10,642 bases of DNA from an uncultured delta proteobacterium (GTDB lineage: Bacteria; RBG-13-61-14; DRUE01). Position numbers and translations under genes: made by a program. The DNA is taken from NCBI GenBank assembly GCA_903930515.1, contig CAIYYW010000236.1, positions 1 to 10,642 on the forward strand, in the 5' to 3' direction. Numbering within the stretch: the first letter of the stretch is position 1; each line of letters opens with the position of its first letter. Positions 2,892 to 3,595 of this stretch are shown here, in pieces. Below the pieces are notes generated by a model. It did not search any database, was not told where the DNA came from, and worked only from the letters and a program-made list of their open reading frames with translations.

Positions 2892-3209
2892 TCAATCATC
2901 CAGTCCCAGCGCGAACTTGATCGCCGCATCCAGTTCCGTCATTTTTTCCGGGGAGAGCTGGCTGATTCTTACAGCTAAAAGCCTTTTGGGAATTGTCGTG
3001 ATTATATCCAGGTTTGCAACGCACGGCTGAGGCAGTTTTTCCCGTTTGCCCAGCAAAACCTCAACCGGAATGCCGCGGATCCTGGTGGTCACCGGGGCCA
3101 CCGTGATCAATTCCCGGACCAGATATGCCTCATCGCGCGACAGCAAAACCACCGGCCTTTTCCCGGCCGGCTTGGGCAGATGCGCCCACCAGATTTCTCC
3201 CCGCATCAT
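2892..3209 (-). CDS. MazF/PemK-family mRNA interferase toxin
   Basis: The product is a small type II toxin of 105 residues. From the ATG the protein starts MMRGEIWWAHLPKPAGKRPV, then has VVLLSRD, the VAPVTTRIRGIPVEV segment typical of MazF/PemK, and the later CVANLDIITTIPKRLL region. The family cleaves single-stranded RNA at short sequence motifs and inhibits translation until its antitoxin binds. The antitoxin gene lies immediately upstream and its TGA overlaps this ATG as ATGA (3209-3206), indicating translational coupling. GAGGAG lies eight bases before this ATG. An upstream in-frame GTG at 3215 would add two residues and is less well placed. Length and motifs are intact, so the toxin is probably functional. 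The RNA target motif cannot be predicted. Confidence 0.9.
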   Translation of the reverse strand: MMRGEIWWAHLPKPAGKRPVVLLSRDEAYLVRELITVAPVTTRIRGIPVEVLLGKREKLPQPCVANLDIITTIPKRLLAVRISQLSPEKMTELDAAIKFALGLDD

Positions 3210-3469
3210 TTCCACGGCTCCTCTTGAAAAAGCTCCGCGGCTGCGCCCGCCGCCGCTTCTATTTCTTCTTCGCTCTCAGGATGCTCCCGATACCCTTGCT
3301 GATACCGCTCAATCAACTTTTTCCGCTCCAGCTCCTTGAGCGCCCGCTCCAGAGCCAGCCGGATAAAAGCGCTCCGCGACTTTTTGGCCTGTTTTCTCGC
3401 CAACTCAACCTTTGCCGCCAGCTCCACGGGAAGACTGATGGCGATTTTTTGCGCGGTCCTCATAGTCAT
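3206..3469 (-). CDS. Ribbon-helix-helix antitoxin (MazE/CopG-like)
   Basis: This 87-residue protein is encoded first in the toxin-antitoxin pair. Residues 8-14 (KIAISLP) form the DNA-contacting beta strand. They are followed by helix 1 (VELAAKVELARKQAKK), a SRSAFIR turn and helix 2 (LALERALKEL), the ribbon-helix-helix layout of dimeric repressors. The acidic C-terminus (HPESEEEIEAAAG, then AELFQEEPWK) is the part that normally wraps around and blocks a MazF toxin. The RHH dimer should repress its own promoter, where four direct repeats are visible. ATG at 3469 is chosen because G-rich bases (GGGGG, 3475-3471) lie just upstream. ATG at 3463 is a possible alternative start and would remove two residues. 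Confidence 0.85.
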   Translation of the reverse strand: MTMRTAQKIAISLPVELAAKVELARKQAKKSRSAFIRLALERALKELERKKLIERYQQGYREHPESEEEIEAAAGAAAELFQEEPWK

Positions 3470-3514
3470 ACCCCCATCATACCATGATTATACCAAGATC
3501 ATACCAGAATTCAA
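3463..3514 (-). promoter_or_regulatory. Autoregulated toxin-antitoxin promoter with four 11-bp-phased operator repeats
   Basis: On the minus strand the octamers GGTATGAT (3505-3498), GGTATAAT (3494-3487), GGTATGAT (3483-3476) and GGTATGAC (3472-3465) start at exact 11-base intervals. The last covers the ATG at 3469. The second contains a perfect -10 box TATAAT (3492-3487), with TTGAAT (3514-3509, 4/6) 16 bases before it. Transcription would start near 3480. Direct repeats one helical turn apart fit cooperative binding of RHH dimers along one DNA face, which would block polymerase and possibly the ribosome site. The repeats are seen directly; the binding protein is inferred. Confidence 0.75.
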
Positions 3515-3595
3515 CCGGGGTTCTCAAAACATCTTTGCGCGTTTTCAGGCTTTGGCGCCGGAGGTAAATCCCGGGGAAAATGGATCGGGAAAAAC

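Follow-up and report, generated by a model that had tools for sequence, protein, structure and literature searches.

A phased array of four boxes as the probable operator of a ribbon-helix-helix antitoxin in a MazF-type toxin-antitoxin pair

The window, by which we mean the whole stretch of 10,642 nucleotides analysed, carries an antitoxin gene directly upstream of a toxin gene, with the two overlapping (Table 1). This pair arrangement is conserved, the antitoxin ORF abutting the toxin in nearly all homologous loci. Pfam profiles identified an RHH_1 antitoxin and a PemK/MazF toxin, in agreement with the mazEF-like identity given to the pair in an earlier note on this DNA, and by sequence it qualifies as a predicted type II toxin-antitoxin system with an RHH antitoxin and a MazF/PemK toxin. 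The antitoxin scored below the curated cut-off of the NCBIfam MazE equivalog NF050104 (16.3 versus 65 bits). Among solved structures M. tuberculosis MazE6 is its nearest relative, followed by EndoAI and CopG, and these PDB sequence matches, together with Pfam, place its predicted fold as ribbon-helix-helix (RHH). A search of the genome for RHH_1 gave a single match at E <= 0.001. For the toxin, homologues suggest a start at ATG 3209 or 3206. Elsewhere in the window, the C-terminal half of a DUF429 protein (PF04250, profile positions 123-205) and an upstream ORF in another frame, apparently the N-terminal half, were observed on the minus strand (188-553 and 611-1054); a frameshift or an assembly error has probably broken a single gene into these two parts.

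Table 1. Features of the toxin-antitoxin locus and its promoter in the window
Feature	Sequence	Positions	Strand	Remarks
-35-like hexamer	TTGAAT	3509..3514	minus	First base to box 2 dyad, 24 bp, the modal offset of the family
Box 1	GGTATGAT	3498..3505	minus	Pseudo-dyad 3501; within -35/-10 spacer; 12.0 bits
Box 2	GGTATAAT	3487..3494	minus	Pseudo-dyad 3490; holds -10 hexamer TATAAT 3492-3487; 10.5 bits
Box 3	GGTATGAT	3476..3483	minus	Pseudo-dyad 3479; covers expected transcription start, inferred from -10; 10.3 bits
G-run, likely ribosome-binding site	GGGGG	3471..3475	minus	AGGAG at the equivalent place in same-genus relative L016
Box 4	GGTATGAC	3465..3472	minus	Pseudo-dyad 3468; over ribosome-binding site/start-codon spacer and upstream ATG 3469; 12.2 bits
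RHH antitoxin gene		3206..3463	minus	PF01402 (RHH_1), 28.4 bits, cut-off 20.5; reading strand K-I-A-I-S-L
PemK/MazF-family toxin gene		2892..3215	minus	PF02452, 67.2 bits, cut-off 23.1; overlaps antitoxin stop

ORF finding put the antitoxin start at ATG 3469, and an in-frame ATG is also present at 3463; the former reading adds M-T to the protein. The G-run (3475-3471) ends 7 nt from ATG 3463 and only 1 nt from ATG 3469, and most homologues begin as the shorter reading does, with M and four further residues ahead of the conserved K. On the grounds of this spacing and alignment, ATG 3463 is probably the start codon, which would put box 4 between the ribosome-binding site and the start. The earlier proposal that the fourth repeat contains the start codon thus holds for ATG 3469, which the box overlaps, but not for the likelier start. 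The predicted start codon lies within a box in some relatives (L013, L026 and L123). The predicted promoter consists of TTGAAT (3514-3509), a 16-bp spacer and TATAAT (3492-3487), with TGn in front of the latter as in an extended -10; the -10 element does lie inside the second repeat, as had been claimed.

The four repeats described between 3463 and 3514 were recovered with the sequence and positions given for them. On the minus strand the 8-letter boxes start at 3505, 3494, 3483 and 3472, a step of exactly 11 bp or one helix turn, and nothing else on that strand between 3300 and 3700 matches GGTATGAT in 7 or more of its 8 letters. No pair of boxes of this quality at an 11-bp distance arose in any of 20,000 simulated 120-nt sequences of equal dinucleotide make-up. 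When the 3.65-Mb genome (401 contigs) was searched for a phased triple box with at most three mismatches, the array in the window was the sole match, and the reversed-pattern control gave none in the whole genome. A fifth box upstream of the array, GGTTGAAT at 3516, was considered and rejected with a weak score of -1.9 bits.

Homologous loci were gathered with a toxin alignment, which yielded 80 from genomes of many phyla and 3 viral contigs; a scan of genome contigs with the antitoxin alone found no relatives. The loci were picked by toxin similarity, without use of the operator in selection, and 71 non-redundant loci were left after near-identical antitoxins had been dropped. GTATGA was present on either strand upstream of 57 of the 71, compared with 5.0 in dinucleotide shuffles. 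The alignment of homologous promoters had been named in advance as a check on the array, and both the box and the 11-bp step proved to be conserved upstream of relatives. In the same-genus locus L016, where the antitoxin is 53% identical and the neighbouring genes differ, the subsites match the positions of boxes 2-4 relative to the start; L016 was scored as three right-facing subsites, the first of them weak. Another locus (L006, G033:C116) has an RHH antitoxin with one GGTATGA box and an adjoining apparent toxin remnant that is missing its first half.

The distances between boxes follow a simple rule. In the 71-locus set, exact boxes measured from base 4 to base 4 lie mainly 11, 22 or 33 bp apart when direct, 13 or 24 bp when convergent and 9 or 20 bp when divergent. 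Setting the pseudo-dyad of RGTATGA at base 5 turns all of these distances into 11, 22 or 33 bp. On this 11-bp lattice fall 50 of 53 exact box pairs up to 35 bp apart; when one mismatch is tolerated, it takes in 135 of 183 pairs (shuffle mean 0.7, maximum 4). The 71 loci served both to discover this rule and to measure it. Some sites have a 12-bp step instead. The -35 hexamer is the usual anchor of the lattice: in the family, dyads lie mainly 24, 35 and 46 bp from TTGACA, and the window fits this register with dyads 13, 24, 35 and 46 bp from TTGAAT (3514).

With the scoring used, most loci have three subsites, and left, right, right is the commonest order. Among scored loci the window is the only array of four right-facing boxes, and all four scores are strong; three right-facing boxes in a row also occur in L058, L046 and L123. 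The description of the four-fold direct array as distinctive is therefore correct with respect to its rare layout, but the all-direct order is not conserved, as relatives mix orientations on the lattice. For the same reason, the contrast drawn earlier between direct and palindromic operators is not a real one.

The box varied with the antitoxin strand expected to read it. Exact RGTATGA was found in 59 of 64 loci with a K-x-A-x-S-like strand (it was missing in the other 5) and in 0 of 7 loci with other strands (R-T-T, I-Q-P and L-A-T), and in a second set of 22 loci a box of at least 9 bits accompanied 10 of 11 K-A-S antitoxins versus 0 of 11 others; the p values (6e-7 and 3e-5, respectively) are inflated by relatedness of the loci, and the second set is only partly independent, with no redundancy reduction and with class labels and box threshold fixed after the data had been viewed. 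In the R-T-T class, RGTATAA stands in place of the box in 2 of 3 loci, and upstream regions of the I-Q-P class show, by eye, a TTGTG/ACACAA-like sequence. From these upstream sequences, antitoxins with other reading strands are predicted to use other operators.

Several individual loci are of interest in this respect. Antitoxins with an R-L-T-V-T-I strand (L058, L076 and L039) carry RGTATAA in tandem with an 11-bp step and come closest to the direct array of the window. For those with a K-I-I-Q-V-P strand (L070, L072, L073 and L088), the apparent operator differs and consists of TTGTG with TTACACAA. MazF-type pairs in which the antitoxin starts with V-Q-M-T (L105-L109, L111, L118, L119 and L125) are without RGTATGA, and several show, by eye, a TATAGCTAT-like sequence, which suggests a second operator class. 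In L010 (G043:C14) an RHH antitoxin lies next to an apparent PIN-type (VapC-like) toxin and a TCATACC box is present in the promoter; the code may therefore extend beyond MazF pairs.

A published relative provides a direct link between the box and an antitoxin. In the work of Kumari and Sarma (PMC9477884), the N-terminal domain of MazE6 binds CCGGTTATACTATCTGTA 1:1 with a Kd of 0.09-0.29 uM, binding is about 100-fold weaker when the centre of TATACT is changed, and a docking model places Lys5 and Ala7 on bases. In the MazE6 strand M-K-T-A-I-S-L these two residues are the K and A of K-x-A-x-S, and TTATACT is the complement of AGTATAA and thus the same box as found here. Taking RGTATRA, a K-x-A-x-S strand and overlap with the -10 as the marks of a MazE6-type operator, the window has one, binding itself being predicted.

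We propose that the four boxes are the autoregulatory operator of the downstream RHH antitoxin, with each box taking one dimer and the dimers stacked along one face of the DNA, and assign this reading a probability of roughly 0.88. It is favoured because homologous promoters preserve both the box and the 11-bp step and because MazE6, with the same reading residues, binds the same box (PMC9477884); the operator role given to the repeats in the earlier note is upheld on the same evidence. Box identity, lattice, conservation, promoter register and covariation with the reading strand were computed; binding of one dimer to one box comes from MazE6; we infer that all four boxes are occupied, that neighbouring dimers touch one another and that the toxin has a modulating effect.

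Promoter prediction found two sigma-70-like promoters in the array, each ending in a box, and box 2 is a perfect TGnTATAAT. The boxes might then be stacked promoter elements, each TGGTATGAT or TGGTATAAT being an extended -10-like sequence that gives one of several overlapping transcription starts rather than a protein site. We consider this improbable: relatives have, on the same 11-bp lattice, reversed boxes and boxes located downstream of the -10, the box follows the antitoxin reading strand, and an operator box that doubles as a -10 is expected.

MazF-family toxins are generally known to cleave RNA at short motifs, and box 4 overlaps the ribosome-binding region and the upstream ATG, so that the boxes could instead have a role at the level of the mRNA leader, either in the control of translation or as sites of cleavage by the toxin. 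Such a role is very unlikely, as the first two boxes precede the expected transcription start, and the presence of both orientations in the family suits double-stranded DNA and not RNA. That a regulator other than the antitoxin reads the boxes is equally hard to credit: no points in its favour were found, the boxes accompany the gene pair across phyla and vary with the antitoxin reading strand, and the genome has only the one RHH_1 match and one array.

As an antitoxin operator, the array would work as follows. Each box would be a pseudo-symmetric subsite with the core R-G-T-A-T-G-A, centred on a pseudo-dyad at the second T. One antitoxin dimer would read it with a two-stranded beta-sheet placed in the major groove. 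The 11-bp spacing would stack four dimers on one face, from the -35/-10 spacer through the -10 and the transcription start as far as the ribosome-binding region, and in that position they would block RNA polymerase and so repress the antitoxin-toxin operon. The two-fold symmetry of the RHH dimer should make it almost indifferent to whether a box is direct or inverted, which would explain the mixed orientations. Cooperativity and control by the toxin are plausible here, as known for RelB-RelE (PMC2812701), and tuning by the toxin:antitoxin ratio, suggested previously, is plausible as well. Direct repression of translation, also part of the earlier note, is unsupported, since an RHH protein on double-stranded DNA does not explain it.

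Judged from its sequence, the window thus appears to hold a genuine operator whose kind is known but whose layout, with four boxes all in direct order, is unusual, and which lies within a family-wide code. We give an even chance to a broader form of this proposal, in which K-x-A-x-S RHH antitoxins across many phyla share one code: RGTATRA on an 11-bp lattice, usually anchored on the -35, where subsites may face either way and their number, two to four, sets the strength of repression. The window would be the all-direct four-subsite version, on which dimers could line up in an open row that is graded by the amount of antitoxin and bridged by toxin. Neither 11-bp operator arrays of RHH antitoxins nor such a code was described in the literature searched, most subscription papers lying outside it. 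If the code is correct, the operator of a widespread toxin-antitoxin family would be predictable from the antitoxin sequence by a simple rule, and the lattice would explain why its promoters resemble palindromes in some cases and direct repeats in others. Natural operators exist with two, three and four subsites in many orders, which would also make it possible to test directly how subsite number and order affect repression and its relief by toxin.

Known systems resemble the window in different ways. E. coli mazEF (reviewed in PMC4803016) likewise has a toxin of the MazF family and an operon that regulates itself and contains alternating sites, but its antitoxin has an AbrB-type fold and its palindromic operator is unrelated in sequence; of the palindromic mazE-type operators invoked earlier, the E. 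coli one thus belongs to an antitoxin of a different fold. E. coli RelB on relO (PMC2812701) is an RHH antitoxin with adjacent dimers on one DNA face, for which spacing is essential and the toxin is a co-repressor; unlike here, relO has two 12-bp half-sites with the core [A/T]TGT[A/C]A, and the toxin is RelE-type. The omega repressor of plasmid pSM19035 (reviewed in PMC4803016), also RHH, places one dimer on each short repeat, uses direct and inverted repeats and aligns its dimers on arrays, but its repeats are 7 bp, it belongs to another protein branch and it is a separate regulator of a three-gene locus. M. tuberculosis MazE6 (PMC9477884; PDB 7wj0 and 7wnr) shares with the window an RHH antitoxin paired with a MazF toxin, a K-x-A-x-S strand and the same box over the -10, read by one dimer; it was studied with a single dimer bound to an 18-bp fragment, whereas the window offers four boxes at 11-bp steps.
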